Part shown: positions 3,563 to 44,140 of the stretch, piece by piece | Numbering within the stretch: the stretch's first letter is position 1 | How the letters are laid out: each line of letters begins with the position of its first letter | NCBI RefSeq assembly: GCF_026210795.1 | Contig: NC_089440.1 | Coordinates: forward strand, 1,178,001 to 1,242,000 | Reading direction: 5' to 3' | Origin: Rhizophagus irregularis | Taxonomy: Eukaryota; Glomeromycota; Glomeromycetes; Glomerales; Glomeraceae | Length of the DNA: 64,000 nucleotides | Program-made: the position numbers and the translations under genes | Notes under the pieces: generated by a model | Database searches by the model: none | Seen by the model: the letters and a program-made list of their open reading frames with translations, nothing else | What the model was told of the DNA's origin: nothing

Positions 3563-3806
3563 TAAGGTTGCTTGCCGAAACCTAGGGGTTTAGGCAAGAT
3601 GGCGTTTCGCCGAAAAGTGAAATTCTGCCAAAACTATATTAAAGTTATATTAAAAAACTGGTAAAACTTTGGAGAAAGGCGAAACTGCCGAAACTTATTA
3701 TAAATGCCAAAACTGCTGAAACTCTGCCGAAACTATAATAAATCTATAGTAAAATTTTAATGAAACTAATCATAGGATTTTGAAGAGGTTTAGACAAGCA
3801 ACCTTA
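3563..3806. mobile_element. hAT-type MITE B (244 bp)
   Basis: A compact copy with ends TAAGGTTGCTTGCCGAAACC and GGTTTAGACAAGCAACCTTA. A perfect 8-bp duplication TTAATAAA lies at 3555-3562 and 3807-3814. By eye it is about 95% identical to the reverse complement of the copy at 31452-31694, so the family moved fairly recently. Confidence 0.9.
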
Positions 3807-4054
3807 TTAATAAAGGACTTGGAATGGCTTTACATAAAATATATAACTTTTTTATATAGAAAGAGCACTTGCTTCTTATTTATTACAATAAGTAAAATTA
3901 GAGTTTTACAATCTGATCTAACAGATTGAATAACCTAATAAGTTGATCTAAAATATTCAGATCAGATTATTAAATTTATAACTTAACTCAGGTTAAGTTA
4001 GTATTAGCCAGATATTTAACCTAATCTGTTGATTTGATAAGATCCCATCTACTA
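3807..4054. other. AT-rich spacer, no gene seen
   Basis: Low-complexity DNA with scattered CAGATC and AACCT words like those at 21.1-21.5 kb. No open frame or RNA gene was recognised. Confidence 0.5.
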
Positions 4055-4409
4055 TACTGGTCAAAAATCAGGCAAACGTGGCATAGTAGCCTTTATCTTT
4101 ATTAAATTTATTCGAACTTATACAATTTACAGAAATAAAAAGAAAGATATAAAAATAAAACTAACTAAAAACAAAGCTATATAGTCTCCTAAGAAAAAAT
4201 AAAGTAAAAAATTAATCTAAAAAAGAAAAATCGCATTACACTAAATTTCCCCAGATCTTCCCCCTTGATATATTCCAACCAAAGTAGAAGCAACTATGCT
4301 AACAAAATAACAAATAGCGCGCCCACTATAAAAATCGACACTCCATCCTGCAAAAGCTGTTATTAAGTAGCACCGTTAGACGACCCATAAAACCCGAAAA
4401 GTGATTAAA

Positions 4410-7400
4410 CTAAGGCAAACCATATTTTATCGAGTTCTTCAACCAATCGGTTCCGGAGTCATGTGAATCGTGTAGGGTCGGAGGTGGTAAAGATGAGTAA
4501 GGTATGTACGTCGACAATGGCAGATTAGATAGCTTCGGAGTAGTTTTCAACTTATAGGTAATGTTCATCGCGTTTTCCCATCTACTTTTCTCATAAGAAC
4601 GCGGATTCCAGATTCGTCTTCTGAATTTCTGGACAAAATTGTTATGAATAGCAGCGATAATTTTAATCGCAGAAGTGCTTGGAATAGATAGATCAACAAA
4701 TAAGTCGATGAAGAGTTTGGGTAAGCAACCACAGATAAGGGCAAAGGAGGACCAATTTGTAGAAGAAAAGGACCAGCATGAAAGAGAAGTAAGTTTAGCT
4801 ATAAATGGAGTAGGATCAATATCAGCCAAATTGCTCGCTTCCAGAAGTTTGAAAATCAAATGATTTTGATAAGACTGGAGAATTTGTTGCATAGGTAGAC
4901 GTCGCTTTTTGCACATAAAAAGGTGCATCAGGTCTTCCATGCGGTCGATACAAGAACGGCAAGTTAATTCGTCTATGTATAAGTCTGGTCGGGTCCGTTT
5001 AAGCTTTTCCAATGTAGGCAAATCATCCAAGAAAAGTTTGAATTTAAAGGTTAAGTGTCTTGAAGCGTGCTCAGGAGTAAAGGACGCGTCATGGGAGGGC
5101 TTGAAATTTAGAGTGAACCAAGTAAGTTCCCAGTCAACAATATAATCTATATTAGTTGATAATAAAGAAATAAAGTGAAATCGCGTTAAATTTAACAATT
5201 CACGCATTAACTGCGTTTGATAATATTGTTTTAGAAGGTGTCGCGGATTAAATTCACAGACAACATCATTGTCATAAATTAAGACAAAATCATGGGCAGA
5301 GGCCAGGTCCATTCCAGAGATCAAAATACTGGATGACGCGGTATGAGCAGTATTGGCCAAGGAATCAGCAAAATCGTTTAAATAATTGCCAGAATGAGCT
5401 TTAACTTTGACGGGAAGGACAGTCAAATTTTTAGAGAAGATGGTTCGCTCGATAATAGCCCAAAGTTCAAAATTTGTAGTTTTATAGTACAAACGACTAT
5501 TTGAGTAGATAGAGGAAAAACAACTTCGAAGACCATCAATGGCAGTTTGTGAGTCAGTATAAATAGTAACTTCAGAGTCGCGAGGAGAGATAGTTAAAAC
5601 AGCGTAAATAGCAGCAGCTTCAGCTCGAGAAGAAGAAGGGTTATCACGAATAAGACCGTGAGCATAAGTGGCGATGGAGTTGGGAAAGCCTGCATCAGGG
5701 ACTATTTGCATCCAAGACCAGCCCATAGAAACATCGGGAGTGCCTAAATTAATAAGAGACCCATCAGTGAAAAAGGTGTAACGCGAGTCTGAAGAAATGA
5801 CCAACGGGGAGTTAGCAAAAACAGCAGTAGCCGATGATTCAATAGTAACAGGAGTAACGGAAGCTACAGTGGTATTTGCTGGAGAAAAATCAATGTCAAT
5901 TTCCAATCGACTATAATAAAGACGGACACCATCTTCTATATCAGCCCAAGTAAAAAGGGAAGTCATTTCAGAAGTAGTACGTTTAATCCGCTCGTTGGTA
6001 GTAGGCAGAATAAGCGAATGTTGTAGAGAGACCGTAGGTGTACAAAGGGTTAAATCAGCATTCCGTTTTTTGGAAGGAGGCAAAGGAATGTGAGCAACGC
6101 AACCAGGACAAGGAGAAAGTCTGATGAGATCACCAGGTGAAGATTCACAATCAGAAGAAATCCAGTGAACAATAGAACAAGTACTACGACTAGCTTGGAC
6201 TAGAAGTTGTTTGCCAAAAAAGGGAGAACCATAATCGTCCAACGTGACAATCCAATTTTTTGTAGTAGGAGGAGAAGATAAACAAGGAGTCAAATCATAA
6301 AAGGAAGAGTCAATCGTAGGCGTAAAATTAAACTGATCCAGCAAACGATTATTGGAGTCAGGAATAGTGGTAACTTGTTGAATATCTTTGTACCAATAAG
6401 GGATACGGCCAGGGCCACGTTGTCCAACCAAATTGTCATAGTAAGCCTTCCAGGAAATTAAATGAGTTCCTTGGGGAGTAACAAGCTGAGATAAATAAAA
6501 CAGTTGTCGTTTACGCAGGATGGGAAGATAGGCTTTAAAGGCTTTAGGCGTCATGCATTCAAATAAAGGAACACGTCCATTTAACAAGGACAAATTCGGA
6601 AGCTTCGATAATTGAGTGTGAAGCAAACAAAAAGGAGTAGAAGACAAGAGAGCAATAGTGCATGCGATATAATCTTTCTTGAAAGAAAATAGAGAAGACC
6701 ATATAGACCAATCTTTAATTAAAAGGGGAGAAATAGGAATCAAGAAATTATATTGAATTAAATTCAATCTATAAATAAAAAGAGATTGAATAAAAACAGA
6801 AGAAGAATTAGCCATTAAAAATAAATTAGTAATATGACATTGTCGTTGATGAGCAAACAAATTAATCAAGCCCAAGGCATGAGACAAAAATAAAATGGAA
6901 TTGGGTAAAGAACAAGAAAAGTTTGCTTTATGCTTTACAACAGATCGTATACTTCTCGTTATTAGGTGGCAGTCGGAATCAGATAAGTGAGTAACTTGCA
7001 TCCGGTATTCAAGTTTCGGTATAAGGACGGCATTATGTAAATACACAACTTGTTTGGAAGAGAGCTTTGCGGGGCGAATAGTCGCTGCGAATAAGCAGCA
7101 TTCACGTTTGAGTTGCTTTTTGACAAAATCCCGGGAACTTTTAATGTTGAACCAGACACCTAAAAAACGAAAAGAAGTTGTCATGGAAATTGGGGTAATA
7201 ATAATGGAAGGAACACTATTTAAAGAGGATAAATCCAAATTAAAAGTAATAGGGGATATAACGGAATTCGAAGTCAAGGGCAACGAATTAGTAATTAACA
7301 CATATTTGTTATGATTAGCGGAAGTGTTATTGATCTGATAAAATTCTTCAGTAATGGATAACATAAATTCCATGCCAGCTTTTGACGAGGAAATAAGAGT

Positions 7401-7793
7401 AGAGTCATCCATAAATACTAAATTATTAATCTTCAAATCAAGAGAAGGACTTAGAGAATCAATTAAAGACGGTGTAGAAAGAACATAAGGGTCCATCATC
7501 TCATTCTTCAGAATAGTAAGTAAGGGATCAATATAAATGACCCATAAGAGAGGAGAAATAACTTCGCCTTGGTCAATGCCAATGCGAACCCTATAGGCAG
7601 GCGTAGATCCATGAGCAGTGAAAACGCGATTAGTGCGTTTCATAAAAAGTGAAAGGATGAACTTAACAGCGGAGGCTGGAAGACGTATACGTTCTAAAGC
7701 GAAACGTAACATCGTTAGATCAACTGAATCAAAAGCTTTAGAAATATCTTGGGAAAAGAATCCAAAGTGGGTTTTTGTTGATATCAGCATCAT
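4410..7793 (-). CDS. LINE ORF2 C-terminal part: RT plus RNase H
   Basis: A continuous 1127-codon frame. It enters the reverse transcriptase at motif A (DISKAFDS, about residues 16-23) and continues through GIDQGEVISPLL (72-83) and the catalytic FMDD box (127-130). A long thumb/connection region follows. RNase H spans about 674-815, with the acidic residues in FTDGS (D677), SRAEAAA (E725), YTDSQ (D747) and a KAH..DFADS tail. A C-x2-C-x8-H-x4-C zinc-like motif lies at 945-961. The catalytic residues of both domains are present. The upstream part of ORF2 is out of frame at about 7765, so this is the 3' piece of a broken ORF and the first dozen residues come from the wrong frame. It copies LINE RNA into DNA at the nicked target site when functional. 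Confidence 0.85.
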   Translation of the reverse strand: MMLISTKTHFGFFSQDISKAFDSVDLTMLRFALERIRLPASAVKFILSLFMKRTNRVFTAHGSTPAYRVRIGIDQGEVISPLLWVIYIDPLLTILKNEMMDPYVLSTPSLIDSLSPSLDLKINNLVFMDDSTLISSSKAGMEFMLSITEEFYQINNTSANHNKYVLITNSLPLTSNSVISPITFNLDLSSLNSVPSIIITPISMTTSFRFLGVWFNIKSSRDFVKKQLKRECCLFAATIRPAKLSSKQVVYLHNAVLIPKLEYRMQVTHLSDSDCHLITRSIRSVVKHKANFSCSLPNSILFLSHALGLINLFAHQRQCHITNLFLMANSSSVFIQSLFIYRLNLIQYNFLIPISPLLIKDWSIWSSLFSFKKDYIACTIALLSSTPFCLLHTQLSKLPNLSLLNGRVPLFECMTPKAFKAYLPILRKRQLFYLSQLVTPQGTHLISWKAYYDNLVGQRGPGRIPYWYKDIQQVTTIPDSNNRLLDQFNFTPTIDSSFYDLTPCLSSPPTTKNWIVTLDDYGSPFFGKQLLVQASRSTCSIVHWISSDCESSPGDLIRLSPCPGCVAHIPLPPSKKRNADLTLCTPTVSLQHSLILPTTNERIKRTTSEMTSLFTWADIEDGVRLYYSRLEIDIDFSPANTTVASVTPVTIESSATAVFANSPLVISSDSRYTFFTDGSLINLGTPDVSMGWSWMQIVPDAGFPNSIATYAHGLIRDNPSSSRAEAAAIYAVLTISPRDSEVTIYTDSQTAIDGLRSCFSSIYSNSRLYYKTTNFELWAIIERTIFSKNLTVLPVKVKAHSGNYLNDFADSLANTAHTASSSILISGMDLASAHDFVLIYDNDVVCEFNPRHLLKQYYQTQLMRELLNLTRFHFISLLSTNIDYIVDWELTWFTLNFKPSHDASFTPEHASRHLTFKFKLFLDDLPTLEKLKRTRPDLYIDELTCRSCIDRMEDLMHLFMCKKRRLPMQQILQSYQNHLIFKLLEASNLADIDPTPFIAKLTSLSCWSFSSTNWSSFALICGCLPKLFIDLFVDLSIPSTSAIKIIAAIHNNFVQKFRRRIWNPRSYEKSRWENAMNITYKLKTTPKLSNLPLSTYIPYSSLPPPTLHDSHDSGTDWLKNSIKYGLP

Positions 7794-8013
7794 GGATAAT
7801 AGATTCTAAAGTAATAATAGGGTCGCGGCAAGAACCTCCAGGAAGACCAGCGAAGTTACCACCTTTAAGGACATCATGTGAAGCCATAATGGTAGAAAGG
7901 CGATTATAAAAGAGTTTGACAAGAGATTTCCTAATCACTTCAAGTAGGGTAATAGGGCGAGTATTTTTTAATTGACACTTCCATTCGTGAGGTTTGGGGA
8001 TGGGAAAAACCAT
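7738..8013 (-). pseudogene. LINE ORF2 fragment: RT finger region
   Basis: A short frame carrying the RT motifs just before motif A, with RPITLLEVIRK and the GG..GLPGGS region. The same protein stretch is continuous with upstream sequence in the copy at 15500-16795, so small frameshifts near 8060 and near 7765 isolate it here. The last residues before the stop are out of frame. Confidence 0.8.
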
Positions 8014-9080
8014 TGCTTGTCGCCATAAGTCAGGAATATCAGCTTTGGAAAGCGTGCTTGAATCAAAATGAGGAGTAAAGCCGAGGTACGAGATCCAAGA
8101 TGTTTGAGCATTTCATAGATAATCATGGAAGGACCAGATGCTTTACCGTTAGGAGTAGAAGAAACGGTGGATAACCATTCATCAAGGGTAGGGGGATTCA
8201 TTAAAGAATCATAGATGGAGGAGGACACATCATCCATAGGTTGATAGGCAGAAGACCATCTATCAGGTAGTGTATCAATAGATACAGGAGGAGTGGACTT
8301 TATAGGTACAAAGTTTTGGAAATGGTTAACAACAGCATCATCTATGTCCTTAGGAGCAGTTAACAACTGAGGTTGAGAAGGATGGTCGATGAAGACACGG
8401 TCCAGAGTGATACGGTGACGGGTGCGAGAAAGCGCTGAATCAATAAAGGAGGAAAGGTCAGTTTCAAAATTATTATTCCTATCGTCCAAGTGAGCACGGA
8501 TGGAGGAGTCTTGGAATTCTTTTTCTTGAAGTAAATGAAATCCCCGTAAGGATTTTGAAATATTGGATAAATCATCAAGAAGTGACTTGAAATTATCTTG
8601 TCGACATGATGAAAGAGAAAAGGGCAGAGTAGGAATGAAAGTAAAAACTTTCTTATATAATTGAAGAATGTTTTGAAGTCGATGCAAATGTATAGACCAC
8701 TTATGTTCATGAGCAGCAGAATAAGTTAAAGGATATTTGCGCAATAGACGTATCGAATGCATTAGGCGATTTAAAAACTGATAATTTTGAGTTAAAATTT
8801 CCAGATCTTTAGGAACCTTAGGAGTATAATTATTGCCAACAGTAGAAGAAGGTAAAGTAGCGTTGGCGGATTTAAGGATTCGCGATTGAAGATATTCGCA
8901 CATCTGATTGATATGCCAGGAGGAAAAGGTTGAAAGTGAAACATCACATAAGGCATCAGCTTTGTCAGCAAATTCCGTCCATTGAGTATCAGTTACAGAA
9001 TCAAATTTGAAAACGCGACGGGTTTGGCGCTTAAGTTGACGAGCGCGAGCCAATTTGGTAGAGGCAAAAAGTAAAGACAT
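7968..9080 (-). pseudogene. LINE ORF2 fragment: endonuclease-RT linker
   Basis: This 370-codon frame holds the linker after the endonuclease and the first RT motifs, including GKASGPSMIIYEMLKHL. It is nearly identical in protein sequence to residues 1-340 of the frame at 15500. It runs out of frame at about 8060, so its last 25 residues are spurious. The chosen methionine is simply the first in frame, since the natural ORF2 begins further upstream in the endonuclease. Confidence 0.82.
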
Positions 9081-9640
9081 ATCATAATATGTGATGACAG
9101 GGTTATGATCAGATGTGCAGATGTCTTGAGCATTGAAAATACAAGCAGTAAGAGCAAATCCTTTGAGAAGAGGGCAGGACCATACATAATCAACACGAGT
9201 AATGTGGTATTGCGATGAAAAGGACTACTAAAGAAATCGGAAAGATTAATGGGCGTAAAATCTTCATAACCGTGAAAGGAGATGAAAAAGTAATCGGCGT
9301 ATATGTTTTGAAGCAATTTGGGGTTGATTAAAATAAATAGGATAATATTTATCTAAATGCATATTAAAATCGCCGCAAACGAGCGCTGATAAAAACCAGC
9401 TTGTTTAGTAAGGATAAGTTGTTGAATAAGCAAATCAATAGTGTCGGTGCGCAGAACGCTTTCAGCAGGGAGGGGATATAAATAACAAATATACGCAATT
9501 TAACATTGCCTTTGAAATATAAATCAACAAGCCAGTCGTGAAGAATGGGATTTAAAGTCTTGTACGTGTGATGCGAAATTTTCTATAAATGAGGAAACGC
9601 ACTTAGAAGAAAGAATTTGTTTAGAAGTATCAAATTCGAA
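9081..9640 (-). pseudogene. LINE ORF2 fragment: EEP endonuclease
   Basis: Read on the minus strand this stretch encodes hallmark pieces of the exonuclease-endonuclease-phosphatase fold: GDFNMH, then RVDYVW and SDHNPV just before position 9080. These are the conserved catalytic and structural motifs of the LINE endonuclease that nicks the target. At least one frameshift near 9210 separates the middle from the SDHNPV segment. The N-terminal half of the domain is not readable in one frame. Confidence 0.75.
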
Positions 9641-10322
9641 GAAAATACAGTATAATTAGAAAGTCGTTTGGATAAAAACTTCATTTGTTTAGGGTGGATA
9701 TGAGTATCAACAATACGCCAAAGGAAATATGTTTTAAAAGAAAAGAAGGTAGAAATCTCTTACAATTTAGTGCGACCGTACATTTTAAGGTAAATTGACA
9801 TTAAAGAGGAAATATTAAATGAATTGGGGATAGGAAGGTATTACTAGGAGGAAAATAATGATTCATGTGAAAAAGTTCAGTAACATTATCGGGGGTTGGG
9901 AGGGTTTCGTACGAGGTGTCGCCAATTAAAATTATTGTCAGACATTAAAACGCAATGATAAAAACAGTCGGAGAGATAAGATTTGAAGAAGAAATTTAAA
10001 CGAAGAAGCTGAATCAGCTTGTTCCAGGGAAATTTCATAATGGAGCTAATGAATTGTTTGATATGACCAGTAAGTTGGTCCAATTTACTTTCAATAACGA
10101 CTCTACTATTTTTGAGATCGTTAATTTCTTCTTGCGTGGCGGAAATAGGGGTAAAAGAAGGAGCGTTGGGGGAGAGGTGAGAAGGAGGAAGTGACGTGTT
10201 GGGAACAAGAATAGTAGGAGGCGGAGGTCGCGATAAAATACTTCTGGGGGGTAAGGGAGATGTATTGGAGGCTGAATGTTAAGTGGAACATGTGATACGG
10301 GGCATCTGCGCCCGGGTCCAAG

Positions 10323-11600
10323 TCAGATTCGTGATGGGGCTTGGGGAGCGGATCGAGCCAGGTGTGATTCGATACGAGTCATCCATTGGTCGGCAAGTTC
10401 AAGAGCGGAAATGCGTTTGTGAAAATTAGCAACTTCACATTGCAATTCGCGCAAGAGGTTTAAAATATTGTTAGCATCATCAGGAGATAATGCTGAGTTG
10501 GGGGTTTGTCGGGGCAAAGGACGTGTTGTAGAACGAGAGGAGGAAGAAAATGAGACCGATCTTTCTTTACTATTATGGCGGGCACGTTGAGAAGGATTGG
10601 GATTTGATTTGTTATGATTTTTATCATTATTAGTGCGGTCATGGGAAATGTTTTTATCACGTCCGGAATCATGAGTAGATCGATCTTTGGATTTTGAGCG
10701 AGATCGGGAGCGAGAACGTGTGTTAGCAGCATTAGGGTAGGCTGACGAGGTTGATTGACATTAAATCGTTCTTTAAGTTTTGCTACAGGGTCACGAGTGC
10801 GACTTCTACCTCTGGATTGTTTTAGTGGGCAAAAATTTGGAGCGCAACCTAATTTGCCACATGCAGCGAGCAAAAGCTTGTTGGTATTATCCGGGAGGGA
10901 CCAGAAAAGTACCTTTCGGCGAAGCTGACAGTTTGTTCAGCAACGGCATCCATGGTTTCTTGGGAATTGAGGTGACGTAAGCCCATCTTTTGGGCTTGTA
11001 AGAGTTTAGAGAAAGCAGTACATTGACAGCTTTAGCGCCAAGTACAGTAAGGGGAGCCAAATTGATATCCTTACTGGTGGGGGGAAGTTGGGTGAGGGTG
11101 GCAACGTATTGATAGCGCGCAGCCTTTTGATCCGCGGTATAAGAACGTGGAGTAATTCTGAGACAGGTGGAGAAACAGTACGCCCATTGGTCGGTAAAAC
11201 GAGCAATAGAATCGGCGTGATCGCATAAAACGGTGCGGGGCTTGCTGAACTTTGGAATTAGGCCTGGAGAAAAGGCGGCAAGAGGTGATATTACCAAATT
11301 TCTTAAAATAAGCCATGAGGTTGTCTTTTTTAATGAAGAAAGGGATATCAGTAACTTGGATAGCCCGGAGATCTTCATTGGATCGGAGCTGGCGAGGGTC
11401 GTAATGCGTGAAAGATTAAGTTAGGGGAGCGGGATGGGTGGAACCAATGCACAAATCGCGTGCTTCAGCGGTATGGAAGTGGATAACGAGGCGTTTGGCT
11501 TCGCCAGAGCCAGTCATACGTGCTTTTCCAGTAAACGACTCGTAAGTTTCTAAAAAAAGGTTATTAACAGCCTCAATAAGGGCTTTGTTGGTAGGGAATT
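10323..11600 (-). pseudogene. LINE ORF1 remnant: RRM-like and Cys-rich
   Basis: The minus-strand frames between 11.6 and 10.3 kb form one broken ORF1. At 11376-11240 the sequence reads as an RRM-like fold (QVTDIPFF, then NLMAYFKKFGNI). At about 10873-10790 a Cys-rich motif CGKLGCAPNFCP is followed by an Arg-rich stretch and then a Ser/Arg/Asp-rich tail. The pieces lie in different frames (10887-11378, 11071-11316, 10460-10873, 10323-10517). ORF1 proteins bind LINE RNA and are needed for its packaging. Confidence 0.65.
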
Positions 11601-12251
11601 TCTTAAGAGATTCAGGGGCAGCATTCGGCGCAGCCGCAGCCTGAAAATCATCTCTGGTTATGGCGAGGGTCGCGCTGGATCTGGAGTTTGATCGTCATCT
11701 GGAGCACCATTGGTGGCATCCAAATTGGGCGACGCGTTAGGGGGTTGTTGCAAGTCTTTGTTTGAAGGTGCGTACGTGGACGCGTCCACGTTTCAGAAGA
11801 CGCGACGTATTTGGCGCAGTTGGCGCAGCAGATTTTTCGGGGAGGAGGTCAAAGTATTTTCGCCAGAGGTATTTTGTTGAGGAGAAGAGGAAGGTCCATC
11901 TACTCCAACGTCAGCCGTCTGGTCATCGGCAACGTAGTGCTTCTTCCATAGAATTTTCGGTAATCGTGCGATTACGTTTACGGCTGGACAGTGTTTTCGC
12001 CGTCGGAGCTTGAGTTATCGAGTTATTATTTTTTCGTTCTTGACGGGAAGCTTTCCTACTGTTAGGGTTATGACTTCCACGGCCTCTCTGCGCGTAGTTA
12101 CGGGAGCATTAGTAGAGAACTTTGAGTTGGGGAATATATAAAATATAAAATTTTATTAGTAGCTTGTATTATTTTTAAAATAATAAAAATTATTTTCGTC
12201 GGAATTTTCGTTTTTGAAAAATTCAGGAGAGAGTACTACTACTGGTCACTA

Positions 12252-12533
12252 CTGGTCAAAAATCAATATATCGGGTAGCAGATATGTATCAGATATGTAC
12301 CCGATATGTGTAGTATTAATGCAGAAAATCGGGTACCCGATATGTGTAAGATATGTGTAAATATATATATCGTCTACATACCATTTACATATCATATACA
12401 TATATCGGTACCTGATATGTATATGATATATATATTTACATATATCTTACATATCGGGTACCCATTACTACGTCTTCTGCATATCGAATGCGTATCGATA
12501 AATATACGCACGCTCAAATATTGATTTGACCAG
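12252..12533. mobile_element. 282-bp palindromic TIR element at LINE junction
   Basis: The ends CTGGTCAAAAATC and GATTTGACCAG are inverted repeats bordered by TA on each side (12250-12251, 12534-12535), as for Tc1/mariner-type elements. The interior is an almost complete palindrome of ATCGGGTACCCGAT and ATATGTATATG words centred near 12392. It has no credible coding frame. The terminal sequence is the one duplicated at the far ends of both flanking LINEs. Confidence 0.7.
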
Positions 12534-12699
12534 TAATAGCTACTACCCGCAGATTTTGGCAATTCCGGCAATAATTTTTTATTATTTTATAAAATAATAC
12601 AAAATACTAATAAAATTTTATATTTGCCTGTTCCCAATAAGCCTACCTATGTCTCAATTGCTTAATGCCAAGGAGGCGTGAAGTAAAATAGCCTGCGGT

Positions 12700-14360
12700 A
12701 GGAAAACTTCGTCGAAAACAAAAAAATGTGACTCACGACACAATTCGAACCCGTGCGGAGGTTGCAGAGGCGTGTCATTGTACGATTACTGAAATTCTAG
12801 CCTGGGCAACAAAATGACCAGACGTTGTTGTGGGTAGATGGACACCATGTAAAAACCAGCTAGAATATCTGCAGCAAAATGCCGACACCACTCCACGAAA
12901 AAAAATTGCCAATAGCCAAGCTCGCCCGAGCGTCGCGTCTTCTCGAAAATGTGGACGGCGTCCGCTCGGCCACCTTTTAAAAGACCGCAACACGATGCGC
13001 CCAGTTGGATGCCCGACGTTAGCCAGGCGGGCGATTAACTCCAGATCGTGTTTTCGCCATGCTTCCGTGATTTTCCGGGCTGCGCTGCGCCGTCACTGCC
13101 CGGTCTGCCCAAATTCTCTGGCAACAAAACCCCACTTATTGAGGGCTGTTGGCAACCTTTTTTAGAAACTTACGAGTCGTTTACTGAAGCGCGTATGTTT
13201 GGGTGCAGTGAGCCAAGCATGGCCTCGTTAGCTCCCCGCCCCATAAGCGAGCACGCGTTGTGCATTGGTTCCGTCCCTGAGTTCCCTGACTGTCTTTCAT
13301 GCATGACACCCGCCAACTCGATCTGAAGATCTGCAGGCCTCCAGGGCCACCCCGGCTGTCCCTGGCTCGACCAAAGACAACTCGTGGCTTTATTCCAAGT
13401 TTGGTGGCTCCTTTCTTGCCGCTCCCTTCAGGTCTCATGCCAAAGTGCAGCGAGCCCGCTGTGTGTGTAGTCGCGCCGTTCAGTAGCCTCGTTGCCGACA
13501 ATGGAGCAGTATGTTTCTCCACTGCCTCAGGGTACTCCTCGTGCAGTGCAGTGCAGTGGATCGAAACTGCGCGCGTCATGCCGTCGCCTGCCGACTCAGC
13601 CGCAATGTTGGGATATGACTTGTCCCTGCGCTCGTAACATAAAAGCAATGTGCCACTCTCTAAATTCTTACAAACCCAAAAGATGGGCTTTATGTCACTT
13701 TCAATTACAAGAATAAATGGATATGGTATAAACAAACTATCGAGCTCGGGGGCGAAAATGCTTTTCTGGTCCTGCAGATAATACTGTAAACTTTGTCTGG
13801 ATGTGGCAAATTAGGTTGCGCTCGGGCTACAGCGCTCAAACCAAACCAGGAGTAAGAGTCGCACTCGCGACCCTGTTGCCCAAAAACCGAAGGCGGTTGC
13901 AATGTCAATCCTGCGCCGCGCTGGCTCCCCAACTACCAATACTGCGTGCTTGCTCCCGTGCAAACAAAATACTAAAGATCGATCTGCTTCCAATTCTGGG
14001 CCGATGATAATAATATTTCCCATGACCGCACTAATCATGATAAAAAAATCATAACATACTAATACAGTGCTTCGAGCGTCTTATAGCATAACTGAATGAT
14101 CAATGCAACTACTAAGCTCCTCTCGTTGCAGCTGCGTCAGCTACTGTGAGCTCAAAATTGCATTATCTCACGATGATGCTAACAATATTTTAAACCTTTT
14201 GCAGCGAATTGCAATCGCTAGTTTCACAAGCGCACCATGCTGGGCTGCTGGCCGAAAGGACCGTGTTAGTCGCACCTTGACTTTGTCCGCTTATACGCTA
14301 ATGAGCCTGACTTGGATCTCATGCAGAGATACCCACCAGCATCTCATGTTCGCTTAATAT
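12700..14360 (+). pseudogene. LINE ORF1 remnant, heavily degraded
   Basis: Patches align with ORF1 of copy L, for example the FLETYESFT segment around 13160 and the LNSYKPKRWA segment around 13665. Between the patches the sequence is scrambled by substitutions and indels, and it is more GC-rich than most of the window. Several open frames of 70-180 codons occur here on both strands, but none reproduces a continuous ORF1 and they are regarded as accidental. Confidence 0.6.
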
Positions 14361-14989
14361 TCAGCAACTCACATGCCTGCACAAATGCACATCGTTTCCA
14401 CTCTAAAGCAATTGTTGCACAGCAACATTAAACTCCTTTCTTAAATGCTTCCCAAATGTTTTATTAACACTCTTTTCACTATGAAATCCAACGTCTCAAA
14501 ATATTAGAGTGATTATTGAAAGTAAATTGGACCAGCTCACCTGATGCATCCAAACAGTTCATTAACTTTGTTAGTGGTCAACACAGACAGCTTTGATTCA
14601 GCTTCTTCTGTTTATTTCTTCTCCAACGACTGTTTTATAAATTCTTCTGAGAACACAATTATGATACGCCTCAAAGCCCTCCCAACACAATGTTGCTGAA
14701 GAATTTTTAGCTGTGAATCACTTATTTTCTTGCGCAGGCCAACGCTTCTTACATTACAAACTCTTTTAATATTTCCATAAACATGTTAATGGCAAAATGC
14801 GTGGTCGAACAAATTAGAAAGAGTTTCTTCAACAACTTTCCTTAAAACATATTTTAAACAGTGTATCGTTAATGCACAAATCTCCCACACAAACAAATGA
14901 AGTTTTTATCGAATGTTTTTCTAATTATACTGTGTTTTCTTCGAATTTGTCTTACAAACAGGGTTCTTTCTTCTGGTGGTATTTGCACA

Positions 14990-15500
14990 TAGGTAATTCT
15001 TTTTAGCATACGCATGTCTAATTTTAAATCCCATTCTTCACGGTGTACTTCTGTTGATTTATATTTTAAAGGCAATGTTAAATTGCGTATTTTTGTTATT
15101 TATATCCCTCCCCCTGCTGAAAGTGTTTTGCGCTCTGATACTATTGATCTGCTTATTCAACAACTTACCCTTACTAAACAAGCTGGTTTTTATCATGCTG
15201 TTTGTGGCGATTTTAATATGCATTTAGATAAATATTATCCTATTTATTTTAATCAACCTCAAATTGCTTCAAAACATATTCACTGATTGTTTTTTCATCT
15301 CCTTTCTCACGGATATGAAGACTTTACACCCGTTAATCTTTCCGACTCTTTGAGTACCTTTCATCGCAATCGACCACATTACTCGTGTTTGACATGATGG
15401 CCTTCGCCTCTTCTCAAAGGATTTGCTCTTACTGCTTGCATTTTTAATGCCTAAGACATTTGCACATCTGATCATAACCCTGTCATCACATACTATGATA
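14990..15500 (+). pseudogene. LINE ORF2 fragment: EEP endonuclease
   Basis: The frame 15014-15286 reads LRIFVIYIPPP and then CGDFNMHLD, the central part of an EEP endonuclease. Downstream, around 15440-15480, the TSDHNPVITYYDM segment is present in another frame. Frameshifts and a stop at 15284 break the domain. Confidence 0.75.
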
Positions 15501-16795
15501 TGTCTTTACTTTATGCCTCTACCAAATTGGCTCGTGCTCGACAACTTAAGCGCCAAACCCGTCGCGTCTTCAAATTTGATTCTGTTACTGATACTCAATG
15601 GACAGAATTCGCTGACATAGCTGATGCTTTATGTGACGTCTTGCCTTCAACCTTTTCCTCCTGGCATATTAATCAAATGTGTGAATATCTTCAATCACGA
15701 ATCCTCAAAGCTGCCAACGCTATTTTACCTTCTTCTATTGTTGGCAACAATTATACTCCTAAGGTCCCTAAAGATCTGGAAATTTTAACTCAATATTATC
15801 GGTTTTTAAATCGTCTAATGCATTCGATACGTTTATTGCGCAAATATCCTTTAACTTATTCTGTTGCTCATGAACATAAGTGGTCTATACATTTGCATAG
15901 ACTTCAAAACATCTTTCAATTATACAAGAAAGTTTTTACTTTCATTCCTGTTTTACCCTTTTCTCTTTCATCATGTCGACAAGACAATTTTAAATCACTT
16001 CTTGATGATTTATCCAATATTTCAAAATCCTTACGGGGATTTCATTTACTTCAAGAAAAAGAATTCCAAGACTCCTCCATCCGTGCTCACTTGGACGATA
16101 GGAATAATAATTTTGAAACTAGCCTTTCTTCCTTTATCGATTCAGCGCTTTCTCGCACTCGTCGCCGTATCACTTTGGACCGTGTCTTCATCGACCATCC
16201 TACTCAACCTCAGTTGTTAACTGATCCTAAGGACATAGATGATGCTGTTGTTAACCATTTCCAAAATTTTGTACCTATAAAGTCCACTCCTCCTGTATCT
16301 ATTGATACATTACCTGATAGTTGGTCTTCTGCCTATCAATCTATGGATGATGTGTCCTCCTCCATCTATGATTCTTTAATGAATCCCCCTACCCTTGATG
16401 AATGGTTATCCACCGTTTCTTCTACTCCTAACGGTAAAGCTTCCGGTCCTTCTATGATTACCTATGAAATGCTCAAACATCTCAAATCTCGTACCTCGAC
16501 TTTACTCCTTATTTTGATTCAAGCATGCCTTTCCAAAGCGGATATTCCTGACTTATGGCGACAAGCAATGGTTTTCCCCATCCCCAAACCTCACGAATGG
16601 AAATGTCAATTAAAAAACACTCGCCCTATCACCCTACTTGAAGTGATTAGAAAATCTCTTGTCAAACTCTTTTATAATCGCCTTTCTACTATTATGGCCT
16701 CACATGATGTCCTTAAAGGGGGTAACTTCGCTGGTCTTCCTGGTGGTTCTTGCCGCGACCCTATTATTACTTTAGAATCTATTATCCATGACTGA
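15500..16795 (+). CDS. LINE ORF2 fragment: linker and RT fingers
   Basis: A continuous 431-codon frame with the post-endonuclease linker and the first RT motifs: GKASGPSMI (about 330-340), AMVFPIPKP, RPITLLEVIRK and GLPGGSCRDP. It is longer in frame than the matching region of copy L. It stops where an alanine codon and neighbouring bases seem lost, just before motif A, so the RT is split from the next frame. This is not a functional protein by itself. Confidence 0.8.
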   Translation: MSLLYASTKLARARQLKRQTRRVFKFDSVTDTQWTEFADIADALCDVLPSTFSSWHINQMCEYLQSRILKAANAILPSSIVGNNYTPKVPKDLEILTQYYRFLNRLMHSIRLLRKYPLTYSVAHEHKWSIHLHRLQNIFQLYKKVFTFIPVLPFSLSSCRQDNFKSLLDDLSNISKSLRGFHLLQEKEFQDSSIRAHLDDRNNNFETSLSSFIDSALSRTRRRITLDRVFIDHPTQPQLLTDPKDIDDAVVNHFQNFVPIKSTPPVSIDTLPDSWSSAYQSMDDVSSSIYDSLMNPPTLDEWLSTVSSTPNGKASGPSMITYEMLKHLKSRTSTLLLILIQACLSKADIPDLWRQAMVFPIPKPHEWKCQLKNTRPITLLEVIRKSLVKLFYNRLSTIMASHDVLKGGNFAGLPGGSCRDPIITLESIIHD

Positions 16796-17616
16796 TGTCC
16801 AACAAAAAACACACTTTGGAATTCTTTCAAGATATCTCTAAAGCTTTTGACTCAGTTGATCTAACAATGTTACGTTTCGCTTTAGAACGTATACGTCTTC
16901 CAGCCTCCGCTGTCAAGTTTATCCTTTCCCTTTTCACGAAACGCACTAATCGCATTTTTACTGCTCATGGGTCTACGCCTGCTTATAGGGTTCGCATTGG
17001 TATTGACCAAGGCGAAGTTATCTCTCCTCTTTTATGGGTTATTTATATTGATCCCTTACTTACTGTTTTGAAGAATGAAATGATAGACCCTTATATTCTT
17101 TCTATACCGTCTTTAATTAATTCTTCAACCTCTTCTCCTGATTTGAAGATTAATAATTTAGTTTTTATGGATGACTCTACTCTTATTTCTTCGTCAAAAG
17201 CTGGCATGGAATTTATGTTATCCATTACTGAAGAATTTTATCAAATCAATAACACTTCTGCCAATCATAACAAATATGTGTTAATCACTAATTCGTTGCC
17301 TTTGACTTCGAATTCCACTTTACTTCCTATTACTTTTAACTTGGATTTAACCTCTTTAAATAGTGTTCCTTCCATTACTATTACCCCAATTTCCATGACA
17401 ACTTCTTTTCGTTTTTTAGGTATTTGGTTTAACATTAGAAGCTCCCGTGATTTTATCAAAAAGCAACTCACACGCGAATGCTGCTCCTTTGCTGCGACCA
17501 TCCGACCAGCAAAGCTCTCTCCCAAACAAGTCGTGTATTTACATAATGCTATTCTTATACCAAAACTTGAATACCGATGCAAGCTTACTCACTGTCCGAA
17601 TCTGACTGCCACCTAA
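16795..17616 (+). pseudogene. LINE ORF2 fragment: RT palm and thumb
   Basis: A 273-codon frame with motif A (DISKAFDS), GIDQGEVISPLL and the FMDD catalytic box. It is collinear with residues 14-270 of the long frame in copy L. It ends at an early stop after a frameshift near 17575. Confidence 0.82.
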
Positions 17617-19763
17617 TAACGTAAGTATACGATCTGTTGTAAAGCACAAAGCAAATTTTTCTCGTTCTTTACCCAATTCTATTCTATTTTTATCTCAATT
17701 CTTGGGCTTGATTAATTTGTTTGCTCATCAGCGACAATGTCATATTACTAATTTATTTTTAATGGCTAATTCTTCTTCTTCCTTTATTCAATCTTTGTTT
17801 ATTTATAGATTGTGTTTAATTCAATATCTTTTTTTGATTCCTATTTCTCCTCTTTTAATTAAGGACTGGACTATATGGTCTTCTTTATTTTCCTTTAAGA
17901 AAGATTATATCGCATGCACTATTGCTCTTTTAACTTCTACTCCTTTCCGTTTGCTTCATACTCAACTTTCGAAGCTTCCGAACTTATCCCTGTTAGACAG
18001 ACGCGTTCCTCTATTTGAATGCATGACACCTAAAGCCTTTAAAGCCTATCTTCCCATTCTGCGTAAATGACAGCTGTTTTATCTATCTCAGCTTGTTACT
18101 CCTCAAGGAACTCATTTGATTTCCTGGAAGGCTTACTATGACAATTTGGTTGGACGTCGTGGCCCTGGCCGTATCTCTTATTGGTACAAAGATATTCAAC
18201 AAGCTACCACTATTCCTGACTCCAACAATCATTTGCTGGATTATTTTATTATTACGCCTATGATTGTCTCTTTATCTTATGAATTGGCTCCTTGTTTGTC
18301 CTCTCCTCCTACTACAAAATTGGATCATCACGTTGGATGATTATGGCTCCTATTTTTGGCAAACAACTTTGATTCAAGTAAAAGCATGGTGATTGTTCTA
18401 TTGTTCAGCTGGATTTCTCCCGATTGCGAATCTTCGCCTGGTAATCTCATCAAACTTTCTCCTTGTCCTGGTTGCGCTGCCCATACTCCTTTGCCTCCTT
18501 CCAAAAAACGGAATGCTGATTTAACCCTTTGTACGCCTACGGTCTCTCTACAACATTCGCTTATTCTACCCACTACCAATGAGCGGATTAGACGTACTAC
18601 TTCTGAAGTGACTTCCCCTTTTCTTGGGCTGATATAGAAGATGGTGTTCGACTTTATTATAGTAGATTGGATTTTGATTCTGATTTTCTTTTTGCAGATA
18701 CCGCTGTAGCTATTGCTCCTGTTACTATTGAATCCTCGGCTGCTGCTGTTTTTGCAAATTCCCCGCTGGTCGGTTTCCCTCGGATTCGCGCTATATTTTT
18801 TTCACTGATGGGTCTCTTATTAATTTAAGCACTCCCGACGTTTCTATGGGCTGGTCTTCAATGCAAATAGCCCCTCGATGCAGGTTTTCCTAACTCCATC
18901 GCCACTTACGCTCACGGCCTTATACGAGATAATCCTTCTTCTTCGAGCTGAAGCTGCTGCTATTTACGCAGTTTTAACTATTTTTCTACGCGACTCAAGT
19001 TACTATTTATACTGACTCGCAAACTGCCATTGATGGTCTTCGAAGCTGCTCTTCTTTTGTCTACTCAAATAGTCGTCTATATTTCAAAACTACAAATTTT
19101 GAGCTTTGGGCTATTATTGAACGAACCATCCTCTCCAAGAATTTAACCGTCCTTCCCGTCAAAGTTAAAGCTCATTCTGGCAATTATTTAAACGATTTTG
19201 CTCGATTCCTATCATCGCTCATACTGCGTTATCCAGTATTTTGATTTCTGGGATGGACCTGGCCTCTGCTCATGATTTTGTCCTAACTTATGATAATGAT
19301 GTTGTCTGTGAATCTAATCCGCGGCACCTTCTTAAACAATATTATCAAACGCAGTTAATGCGTGATTTGTTAGACTTAACGCGATTTCACTTTATTTCTT
19401 TATTATCATCTAATATAGATTATATTGTCGACTGGGATCTTACCTGGTTCACTTTAAATTTACGCTTTATGATGCATCAGCCTTTCCTACCTGGCTTCAA
19501 GACACCTAACCTTTAAATTCAAACTTTTCTTAGATGATTTGCCTACATTGGAAAAGCTTAAACGAACTCGACCAGACTTATACATGGACGAATTAACTTG
19601 CCATTCCTGTATCGACCGCATGGAAGACCTGATGCACCTTTTTATGTGCAAAAGACGTCGTCTGCCTATGCAACAGATTCTTCAATCTTATCAAACTCAT
19701 TTGATTTCTAAACTTCTGGAAGCCGGTAATATGGCTGACATGGCATCTCCACTTATTAGCTAA
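17617..19763 (+). pseudogene. LINE ORF2 fragment: connection, RNase H, CCHC
   Basis: This region aligns throughout with residues 300-1000 of the copy L frame but is spread over several frames (17702-18070, 18116-18340, 18356-18637, 19241-19516, 19539-19763). The RNase H part (about 18790-19240) contains recognisable FTDGS, YTDSQ and KVKAHSGNYLNDF pieces separated by frameshifts. The CCHC-like motif is preserved at about 19600-19650. The 3' UTR-like remainder runs to 20444. Confidence 0.78.
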
Positions 19764-20459
19764 AGCTTACTTCTACATACTGGTCCTTTTCTTTTACAAA
19801 TTGGTCCTCCTTATGCCCTTGTACGAGGTTGTCTACCCAGGCTCTTTATCGACTTATTTGTTGATTTATCTATTCCAAGAAATTCTGCGATAAAGGTTGT
19901 CGCTGCTATTCATAACAATTTTGTTCAAAAATTCAGACGCCGAATTTGGAATCCATGTTCTTATAAAAAAAGTAGATGGGAAAACGCGATGAATATTACT
20001 TATAAGTTGAAAACTACTCGAAGCTTCTAATTTGCCTTTGTCGACGTACGTACGCTACTCGAAACCGATTGGTTGAAGAAGCTCGATGAAATATGGTTTG
20101 CACTTGGTTTAATCGCTTTTCGGGTTTTATGGGTCGTCTAACGGTGCTACTTAATAACAGCTTTTGCAGGATGGAGTGTCGATTTTTATAGTGGGCGCGC
20201 TATTCGTTATTTTGTTAGCATAGTTAACCTAACTTTGGTTGGAATATATCGAGGGGAAGATCTGAGAAAATTTAGTGTAATGCGATTTTTCTTTTTTAGA
20301 TTAATTTTTACTTTATTTTTTCTTAGGAGACTATATAGCTTTGTTTTTAGTTAGTTTTATTTTTATATTTTTCTTTTTATTTTTGTAAATTGTAAAGTTC
20401 GAATAAATTTAATAAAGATAAAGGCTACTATGCCATGTTTGCCTGATTTTTGACCAGTG

Positions 20460-21235
20460 CTATTAAGATAGGTCATCCTGTGGCCCACTCAAGGTAAGGT
20501 TTACATGTAAAATTCTTTAAAGATTCTACTATAAAAGGAAATTTTATGTTACATTGTTATGATTTTTTTCCTTTTTAGTTAATTAACCAATAGAATTTAA
20601 GTAAATCCCAAGGTAAGGTTTCATATAAAAATGAAATTTCTACCAGTAATATATCTTAGTAGTAAGCAAAGTCCTAATCTGACATACATTTGGATTAATA
20701 CTTGAGAGAAAGAAAAATTCACATAAATTTTTCTTAAAAGTTTAATAAAAATATTACAAAATATTTTTTTAATAGATATTTGAATTTCAATAAAAATGTT
20801 GCAAAAATATTTTTTATTTTAAAAAAATGTTTTGCAATATTTTTTAAAATTTTAATAAAAAACATTACGAAAACATTTTTTTAATAAATACTTTAATAAA
20901 AAAACAGTTTGCAATGTTTTTTTTGAAAATTTATTAAAAAATATTGCAAAAATATTTTTTAATAAAAAATTTAATAAAAAAATATTTTCACATCATTTTT
21001 TTTGTTAATTAAATAATAAATACTTTAATAAAAAAAACATTTGGCAACATTTTTTTAAAAATTTATTAAAAAATGTTGCAAAAATGTTTTTTTTATTATA
21101 ATAATTTTTAATTAAAAAAAACATTTTTTAATAAATTTATTATGATTTAATTACCTGAAGCAATCAGGTTACCTGAAGTGATTTGAATTAATCTGAACCA
21201 ATAGATCAGGTCAGATTAAAGTAGGTTATCCAACC
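20460..21235. other. AT-rich spacer with ATGTTGC repeats
   Basis: No gene was seen. About 20740-21130 is built from AAAAATGTTGCAAAAAT-type words in both orientations, a repeat also present near 35.0 kb. About 21140-21235 contains CCTGA/TCAGG words that resume after the small MITE. Confidence 0.6.
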
Positions 21236-43905: not shown

Positions 43906-44140
43906 TAAGTTTGCTGGAGAAACTAGGGGGTTTTGGCAAGTTGGCAAAATGCTGAAATGCTGAAACTTTGCCAAAACTATATAAAAGTTTTATTAAAAAG
44001 TTGGCAAAACTCTGGAGAAAAGCGAAACCTGATGAAACTTATTATAAATGCCAAAATTGGCTGAAACTATAATAAAACTATAGTAAAATTTTGGAGAAAC
44101 TAATTGTAGAATTTTGGAAAGGTTTAGACAGGCAACCTTA
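43906..44140. mobile_element. hAT-type MITE D (235 bp)
   Basis: The ends TAAGTTTGCTGG and CCTGTC-like complement ending GCAACCTTA are inverted. A perfect 8-bp duplication AAAGATGG flanks the copy (43898-43905, 44141-44148). The sequence is a more diverged member of the family at 3563 and 31452. Confidence 0.85.

Follow-up and report, generated by a model that had tools for sequence, protein, structure and literature searches.

A LINE that very probably integrates at the ends of a palindromic CACTA-like MITE in Rhizophagus irregularis

The window, a 64,000-nucleotide stretch of the Rhizophagus irregularis genome, contains two LINEs, L and R, which lie in opposite orientation at the two ends of one small palindromic element (Table 1), and this arrangement raises the question of whether the LINE selects the ends of that element as its landing site or whether the pair arose in another way. 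A sequence-only reading of the locus had proposed that the LINE targets the terminal sequence of the element and that two independent insertions, each with a target duplication, gave the head-to-head pair. The borders on which that proposal rested are right to the base: both LINEs are flanked on both sides by the terminal sequence, with the outer ends at 4056–4069 and 20445–20458. As had been claimed, target duplications are present at both LINEs; each LINE has duplicated the terminal 14–15 bp of the element, (T)GGTTTTTGACCAGT, and the inner copy at R is two T shorter. The sequence CTGGTCAAAAATC occurs without mismatch in the window at 4057 and 12252 on the forward strand and at 20445 on the reverse strand; when up to two mismatches are allowed, 13 matches are found against 2.6 expected, a number reached in none of 100 shuffles. 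Small departures from the MITE family are also seen, in that base 4055 is T where the family has C (base 20459 is G) and the right part of the window MITE (approximately 12464–12534) diverges from other members. The 5′-end of L includes AGT repeats and a partial extra GACCAGT.

Table 1. Features of the two LINEs and their target MITE in the window
Feature	Position	Strand	Remarks
Left CTA flanking the original MITE (3-bp target duplication)	4052–4054	.	Equals CTA at 20460–20462; 24 of 26 clusters alike
MITE outer left end	4055–4069	+	Terminal base 4055 and 14-bp duplicated motif 4056–4069 (ACTGGTCAAAAATC)
LINE copy L	4070–12250	-	3′-end 4070, 5′-end ~12250; 93.6% to another copy over 8.2 kb
ORF of L, reverse transcriptase and RNase H domains	4410–7793	-	1127 aa
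ORF of L upstream of reverse transcriptase	7968–9080	-	370 aa; by itself gives no Pfam match
Inner (5′-side) copy of the target duplication of L	12251–12264	+	MITE left end
Palindromic CACTA-like MITE	12251–12534	.	Target element between the LINE 5′-ends
Inner (5′-side) copy of the target duplication of R	12523–12534	+	MITE right end, GATTTGACCAGT, two T fewer
LINE copy R	12535–20444	+	
ORF of R	15500–16795	+	431 aa; by itself gives no Pfam match
MITE outer right end	20445–20459	+	14-bp duplicated motif GATTTTTGACCAGT (20445–20458) and terminal G
Right CTA flanking the MITE (3-bp target duplication)	20460–20462	.	Pairs with 4052–4054

The inserted element is a non-LTR retrotransposon, with a reverse transcriptase of the LINE kind, a target-site duplication and 5′-truncated copies. 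The reverse transcriptase matches RVT_1 (E 5e-14 to 1e-21), its best-scoring solved relatives include R2 and LINE-1 ORF2, and an RNase H domain lies downstream of it (PF00075; 44.2, 41.5 and 43.9 bits, with the cut-off at 25.8). In the region that precedes the reverse transcriptase, two other copies match the endonuclease family PF14529 (E ~1e-4) at 22.8 and 22.3 bits, below the curated 27.4; the PDB gave no match for the endonuclease part, and NCBIfam gave nothing above cut-off. The domain match suggests that the endonuclease is probably of the AP type.

The target is a palindromic MITE of approximately 290 bp with the ends CACTGG...CCAGTG and 3-bp duplications; in one member of 295 bp, the sequence and its reverse complement are 91% identical. 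Empty sites, which were sought as the sequence-only reading had suggested, are found: among 28 fetched MITEs with both ends readable, 15 have no attached element, and all 15 have identical 3-bp flanks, with CACTGG or CACTAG at the left end (15/15) and the complement at the right end (14/15). The small palindromic element is thus a DNA transposon, as had been supposed, and its type can be added, because CACTR ends and a 3-bp target duplication are those of CACTA/EnSpm-like elements. A Tc1/mariner assignment with a TA duplication, based on TACTGG in the window, was dropped because CACTGG ends flanked by 3-bp repeats were seen in the empty copies. Three long stretches from one MITE end to another (L174, L175 and L176) were considered as possible autonomous elements, and all are interrupted MITE copies: in L174, an insertion with hAT-like ORFs (judged by eye) separates two parts of a MITE that overlap by 9 bp, and from the appearance of their ORFs the three intervals seem to contain other insertions. 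The motif extended by the terminal G (RRTTTTTGACYAGTG) is matched exactly at 184 places and its reversed control at 31, counted irrespective of whether a place lies in these elements.

Genome-wide, the junctions fall repeatedly at this sequence. The 56 LINE 5′-ends examined (55 exact matches and one from a fetched locus) include 53 at a MITE end or at a motif copied by an earlier insertion: 32 were placed by script after a MITE end, 17 after the 3′-end of another LINE and three after the end of a second element, and one further end (C5:1983144) adjoins, by eye, a decayed LINE end. The remaining three (C8, C11 and C27:1956322) lie away from the motif. At the other side, TTTGCCT followed by the motif gave 100 exact 3′-ends, at least one of which (C27:1513612) is the end of the second element, against 0 for the reversed control. 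When LINE tails were collected without requiring the motif (n = 83), a base-exact junction to the motif was present in 63, and in 41 of these the next base is G, as at the MITE end. The remaining 20 comprise two motif-like junctions and 18 others, namely seven to TRAYAAGGACTGA, two to AAAAGTGTGACTT and nine to various sequences, one of them a broken motif. Family assignment covers eight of these 18, for which 8.3-kb regions were fetched; seven belong to other LINE families and one (C11) to the same family off target. A separate set of 38 fetched 3′-ends, from the best 40 of 263 candidates, is biased toward the motif because the query itself contained it and only the best candidates were taken.

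The insertions have a constant orientation, with the 5′-end toward the MITE and the 3′-end outward. 5′-Truncated copies occupy the same insertion place, including a 33-bp remnant with the motif on both sides (C1:90220–90252), tandem copies lie at the duplicated motif, and head-to-head pairs recur elsewhere. Landing at the ends of the element is supported, although as a description it is incomplete, since the motif copied at the 3′-end of another LINE also serves. The element is a target-specific LINE, with one exact site in a repeat and with empty sites present, and its specificity is strong but not absolute, as copies in unrelated sequence amount to one clear case (C11). It could be supposed that chromatin or protein tethering brings the LINE into MITE-rich regions, where it cuts loosely and selection leaves mostly the insertions in MITEs, and the off-target copy and the three of 56 5′-ends elsewhere would fit such a process. 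However, 63 of the 83 tails meet the motif at exactly the same base, and a related family is equally exact at a different sequence, which makes this explanation very improbable.

Whether the motif belongs to the target or to the LINE can be judged from its variants. Of 34 copies, 32 have the identical variant on both sides of the LINE, whereas shuffling gives an expectation of 9.0 (the observed number was reached in 0 of 200,000 shuffles), and in the MITE context agreement is 19/19 against 4.8 expected; this comparison is confined to copies with a readable motif on both sides and 3′-ends that fit the motif pattern, so that decayed ends are absent. The GATTTTT variant occurs in two of the 100 3′-ends, both from the window, whose MITE also has GATTTTT. 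The off-target copy in C11 (~3561645–3569874), which is 95.7% identical to another copy, lies at a different site with its own 14-bp duplication and ends in TTTGCC(T) followed by non-motif sequence; the motif is therefore the target and not the LINE. If instead the motif were terminal to the LINE at both ends, and its likeness to the MITE end were due to common ancestry or capture, its presence at 100 exact 3′-ends and between abutting tandem copies would be accounted for. This possibility, which the earlier reading had named as a refutation of its own proposal, is contradicted by the matching of variants to the MITE end hit and by the other duplication at the off-target copy, and also by the truncated remnant that keeps the motif on both sides and by related LINE families that end at TTTGCC(T) and then adjoin other targets; it has almost nothing left to recommend it.

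The 3-bp duplication of the MITE provides a further test, because it should lie outside the outermost LINEs. It was found there in 17 of 18 clusters and then in seven of eight predictions written before fetching (one for C18 was left out of the eight, its edge being decayed), which gives 24 of 26 clusters, all assembled by hand, against 2.6 expected; the failures are C25 and C6.

In the window, L and R are inverted copies with 87% identity over approximately 6.1 kb (10122–4056 against 14490–20458), and in the first 2.8 kb their identity is only 63–69%. Against three other copies, R is 63–71% identical in its first 2.8 kb and 82–96% in the remainder. Although L and R mirror each other across a palindrome, their origin by a single palindromic duplication of one LINE–MITE unit is hardly credible, as their divergence is 13% within the 6.1-kb alignment and 31–37% in the first 2.8 kb, other MITEs have a LINE at a single end or none at all, and the outer CTA/CTA repeat fits one MITE insertion. 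Two independent insertions into one element, as originally proposed, are in agreement with the uneven divergence, the recurrence of pairs and the one-sided and empty MITEs. The view that L is younger than R likewise fits its longer open frames and the divergence to a third copy (93.6% identity for L, 83.5% for R), which together suggest the more recent arrival of L.

The LINE thus very probably integrates by target-primed reverse transcription at the terminal 14–15 bp of the palindromic CACTA-like MITE, as the nucleotide sequences of the junctions indicate. In this process, the endonuclease would introduce a nick at CACTGGTCAAAAACC^AATATAT, where the motif borders the interior of the MITE; the CC left with a free 3′-end would then serve as primer for cDNA synthesis, with LINE RNA that terminates in GTTTGCC(T) as template, and the cut in the second strand would lie one base before the end of the transposon. 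As insertion duplicates the motif, every LINE has an intact landing site on either side. Each MITE provides two such sites in inverted orientation, and therefore head-to-head pairs form and arrays can grow; use of the copied motif at the 3′-end of another LINE leads to tandem arrays.

A related family, with 64–77% protein identity in the endonuclease, reverse transcriptase and RNase H parts, targets a different sequence, which is called a minisatellite because the genome search showed short arrays with steps of ~52–61 bp; Tandem Repeats Finder detected no array in one short locus of this target. A 1.26-kb non-coding element, the second element mentioned above, is present at the sites of more than one LINE family; as a candidate SINE, it was compared with the LINEs and shares with them the short tail GTTTRCC(T). 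For its locus, Rfam gave only matches below gathering scores, all in the MITE part, outside the element. There is perhaps an even chance that related LINEs kept one 3′-tail while switching landing sites (family A to CACTA-like MITE ends, family B to the minisatellite and more distant LINEs to AAAAGTGTGACTT), that each LINE carries the 1.26-kb element to its own site, and that the MITE transposase might still mobilize entire LINE arrays, since the outer 15 bp of the MITE are re-formed by the duplication. If this is true, the same RNA is found at different targets, and the protein rather than the RNA would choose the site.

LINE families listed for R. irregularis include L1-Tx1, L1-R1 and I (PMC11075540); the main text of that paper contains neither "target" nor "MITE" as a whole word, and the passages surveyed contain nothing on LINE target specificity. 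The 3′ UTR of SART1, whose target is telomeric, has been proposed to anneal to the target (PMC7265360). In the titles, abstract openings and passages surveyed, this LINE system is not described. LINEs with an exact target sequence are studied as natural genome writers and as parasites that choose a harmless home. The end of a DNA transposon is an unusual home, being multicopy, genome-wide, present twice per element in inverted orientation and re-created with each insertion. An internal comparison is available in the same genome, as related LINE families have different exact sites and share a non-coding passenger, found where more than one of them inserts; which part of the protein sets the target is therefore directly testable.

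The nearest known precedent is Tx1L in Tx1D of Xenopus laevis, and the target specificities of two related LINEs, Tx1L and Tx2L, have reportedly been compared. Like Tx1L, which belongs to the Tx1 clade, the present LINE probably has its own endonuclease and uses a specific site in a DNA transposon family. Unlike in that system, the site is the very end of the inverted repeat, the target is a palindromic CACTA-like MITE, the LINE has an RNase H domain, which Tx1 elements usually lack, the organism is another one, and head-to-head pairs, tandem arrays and a shared non-coding passenger are found. MoTeR LINEs of Magnaporthe oryzae are telomere-targeted, have a restriction-like endonuclease and form tandem insertions; they resemble the present element as fungal target-specific LINEs with tandem insertions and differ from it in their telomeric target. 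R1, TRAS and SART use an AP-type endonuclease at an exact site in rDNA or telomeric repeats, and the present LINE likewise occupies an exact site in a repeat, whereas its target is a DNA transposon.

The window (29.7% G+C) corresponds to G000:C12:1178001-1242000, contig C12 of the G000 assembly (146.7 Mb, 32 contigs). A short palindromic MITE lies here between the 5′ ends of two oppositely oriented LINEs, L and R. The motif, that is the terminal 14-15 bp of the MITE, occurs as CTGGTCAAAAATC without mismatch at 4057+, 12252+ and 20445- of the window, and its fourth copy, at the 5′ junction of R, is GATTTGACCAGT, which is shorter by two T. The 3-bp duplication of this MITE is CTA/CTA, at 4052-4054 and 20460-20462, with the left terminal base altered. 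The first 2.8 kb of R (12535-15400) are 63-71% identical to L and two other copies, and the remainder 82-96%; the divergent start may represent a mosaic or an old subfamily. AT-rich tandem-like repeats (20697-21149) are located directly beyond the right end of the cluster, and a dispersed 244-bp repeat is found at 3563-3806, near the left edge, and at 31451-31694 and 43906-44140 (identities of 95% and 79%).

Positions of the two window LINEs and of the 1.26-kb repeat sharing their short 3′ tail
Feature	Position	Strand	Remarks
LINE L	4070-12250 (window)	minus	5′ end toward palindromic element
LINE R	12535-20444 (window)	plus	5′ end toward palindromic element
1.26-kb element	L105:165-1422 = G000:C5:1506464-1507721		at least 41 matches (best of 179 candidates), mostly of uniform length

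When 12252-12540 was used as the query, 80 matches of approximately 291 bp were obtained, corresponding to about 40 scored copies (the best of 227 candidates), each matched on both strands; as with all repeat counts from the genome searches here, this is a lower bound. Thirty-nine MITE copies were fetched with their flanks, and both termini were readable by script in 28. Empty sites exist: in 15 of these nothing is attached to the MITE, and the 3-bp flanks are identical in every one; in the remaining 13, judged by eye, one or both ends bear a LINE or the second element (the 1.26-kb repeat). The empty MITEs end in CACTGG or CACTAG and the complement, with the single exception of CCAGTA, and one MITE copy and its reverse complement share 91% identity. 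Judged on its ends and duplication length, the MITE is CACTA-like, and no transposase relative was found in the three long intervals between MITE ends that were read. One MITE (locus L174, G000:C1:3882700-3887330) is split, with an overlap of 9 bp, by an insertion of 4.2 kb whose ORFs resemble hAT transposase by eye. Nesting of LINE and MITE may occur in both directions, because an empty MITE with a TTT repeat (locus L047) sits, by eye, inside apparent LINE coding sequence.

The sequence-only reading had proposed that the LINE targets the MITE terminal sequence, and across the genomic copies both junctions fall repeatedly in the motif, which upholds that proposal. Exact 5′ ends numbered 55, and one more was added from a fetched locus; by script, 32 of these 56 follow a MITE end (a few decayed), 17 the 3′ end of another LINE and 3 the end of the second element. 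The 5′ end at C5:1983144 is preceded by a decayed LINE end (by eye), and three fall outside these classes (C11:3569866, which is off target, C8:2294437 and C27:1956322). The C8 end (L103, G000:C8:2294437) and a LINE 3′ end on C11 (G000:C11:2973458) both adjoin ATAGTAAAATATCA, perhaps a further recurrent site. At the 3′ side, 83 LINE-type tails were collected through TATGCCAYGTTTGCCT with the following bases (only a sample, the pattern ending in W, but one drawn independently of the motif), and they join the motif (63), motif-like sequence (2), TRAYAAGGACTGA (7), AAAAGTGTGACTT (2) or other sequence (9, one of them a broken motif). In 37 of the 38 fetched 3′ ends, which are not an independent sample because the query itself held the motif, TTTGCCT is followed by (GG/AG/GA)TTTTT(G/A)AC(C/T)AGT; the exception, L030, is broken within the motif. 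TTTGCCT plus motif had 100 exact matches genome-wide in a pattern search, at least one being a second-element end (C27:1513612), versus 0 for the reversed control, and the motif with terminal G had 184, all contexts pooled, versus 31. The motif is followed by G and then other sequence, by a further LINE starting at its 5′ end, or by different repeat sequence. The 5′ junctions are variable in their AGT repeats and also carry parts of additional motifs. Because T precedes the duplication in the MITE as well as at the LINE end, the duplicated stretch measures 14 or 15 bp.

Alternatively, the motif could be an integral part of the LINE at both ends. If it is instead a duplicated target, its variants must agree on the two sides of each LINE. 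Among the 56 copies, 38 had a listed 3′ end at 7.6-9.0 kb and 34 were readable on both sides; the 3′ list was built with the motif pattern, leaving decayed ends out, and where several motifs preceded a 5′ end the script used the first within 75 bases. The motif is identical on both sides in 32 of these 34 (expected 9.0; none of 200,000 shuffles as high) and in 19/19 LINEs in MITE context (expected 4.8). The GATTTTT variant occurs in just two of the 100 3′ ends, both in the window, and the inner left side of the window MITE carries the same variant. Furthermore, the off-target C11 copy, which is 95.7% identical to a copy of family A (the LINE at MITE ends, including L and R) over 8.25 kb, has its own duplication, AGATCACTTTTAAC, and is a true off-target insertion; the LINE therefore ends before the motif. 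This duplication and the agreement of variants contradict an integral motif. As for copies in unrelated sequence, family A has one clear case among the eight off-motif regions that were fetched, C11.

Because LINEs that target the MITE would sit within its terminal motif, the 3-bp duplication of the MITE must flank the outermost motif of each cluster. It does so in 17 of 18 clusters with both outer ends readable. Nine predictions on further clusters were written before fetching; the MITE edge on C18 was decayed, and 7 of the 8 scored predictions were exact, the exception being CCT versus CTT (expected 1.1 for these eight alone; 19 of 200,000 shuffles as high). Pooled, 24/26 clusters agree (expected 2.6; 0/200,000 shuffles as high). 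The clusters were assembled by hand from their ends, with the LINE bodies between mostly unread; C27:1223392/1234802 and C6:2521193/2529717 were counted without inspecting the interior for a MITE, the three bases following a terminal A were used at C6:3118949 and C11:3499283, and C32:431446 (left edge decayed), which agrees by eye, was omitted.

The LINE 5′ end faces the MITE in all 32 MITE-end cases, and none of the 83 sampled tails is joined to the MITE interior; such uniform orientation is expected if the motif sets the strand that is cut. Head-to-head pairs recur (e.g., C27:1504110/1521803, C12:2486937/2505975 and C1:287553/296346), and tandem copies are spaced by about 8.2 kb, consistent with a motif on both sides of each LINE. 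At C1:90220-90252, a 33-bp remnant of the LINE 3′ end has a motif on either side, as expected from 5′ truncation.

Regions of 8.3 kb were fetched for 8 of the 18 off-motif tails. Four copies (L177, L178, L181 and L188), which share 94-98% identity over 8.2 kb, constitute a related family B, whose 3′ ends are all at TRAYAAGGACTGA. This second exact target is part of a minisatellite, whose short arrays have steps of about 52-61 bp; one array borders the fetched C2 copy at its start. The DNA identity of B to A is 66-74%, which separates the families except in the first 2.8 kb of R. Protein identities of B to one family A copy, rough values summed from pieces, are 68-77% in the endonuclease and reverse transcriptase parts, 64-65% in RNase H and 44-49% in the first ORF; the two families cannot be told apart by this measure alone, because the frame-broken L and R have similar values (endonuclease part, 74% and 78%; RNase H part, 66% for R). 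In two copies at AAAAGTGTGACTT, the similarity to family A lies mostly close to the 3′ end; the last of the eight regions (C1) contains yet another LINE family.

The short 3′ tail of the 1.26-kb element, GTTTACC(T), resembles that of the LINEs, and the element has no long ORF, the longest stop-to-stop frame in its locus being 110 aa. Eighteen distinct copies, nine hand-picked avoiding known MITE neighbours and nine further from a pattern search yielding 11, are at the family B site (9), the MITE motif (4), CGAAAGTGTGACTT (1) or elsewhere (4). More copies at the MITE motif were met within LINE clusters (C5:1506464, C1:264136 and C27:1512661), and a C16 copy starts beside a LINE tail at AAAAGTGTGACTT. 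Its duplications are about 13-17 bp at MITE ends, the minisatellite and other sites. Most simply, this element would be mobilised by several LINE families, each of which takes it to its own site.

L encodes reverse transcriptase and RNase H, and in two other copies a match to an AP-type endonuclease lies 5′ of the reverse transcriptase (E about 1e-4, below the curated cut-off). R2 and LINE-1 ORF2 are among the relatives of the reverse transcriptase that have solved structures. Nicking, priming and the RNA 3′ ends of the LINE are inferred from the junctions. In the first LINE ORF (L173:5958-7190, minus), a match slightly below the cut-off (PF07145, E 5e-4) points to a PAM2-like motif; motifs of this type bind poly(A)-binding protein.

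Insertion of Tx1L in Tx1D is a precedent for a LINE that targets another transposable element. The ability of non-LTR elements to do so is mentioned in the introduction of PMC8869645. A survey of transposable elements in Rhizophagus irregularis describes many LINE families, and its main text lacks the whole words target and MITE (PMC11075540). Literature searches, several of them covering part of the matching papers, found no LINE-at-MITE-end system.
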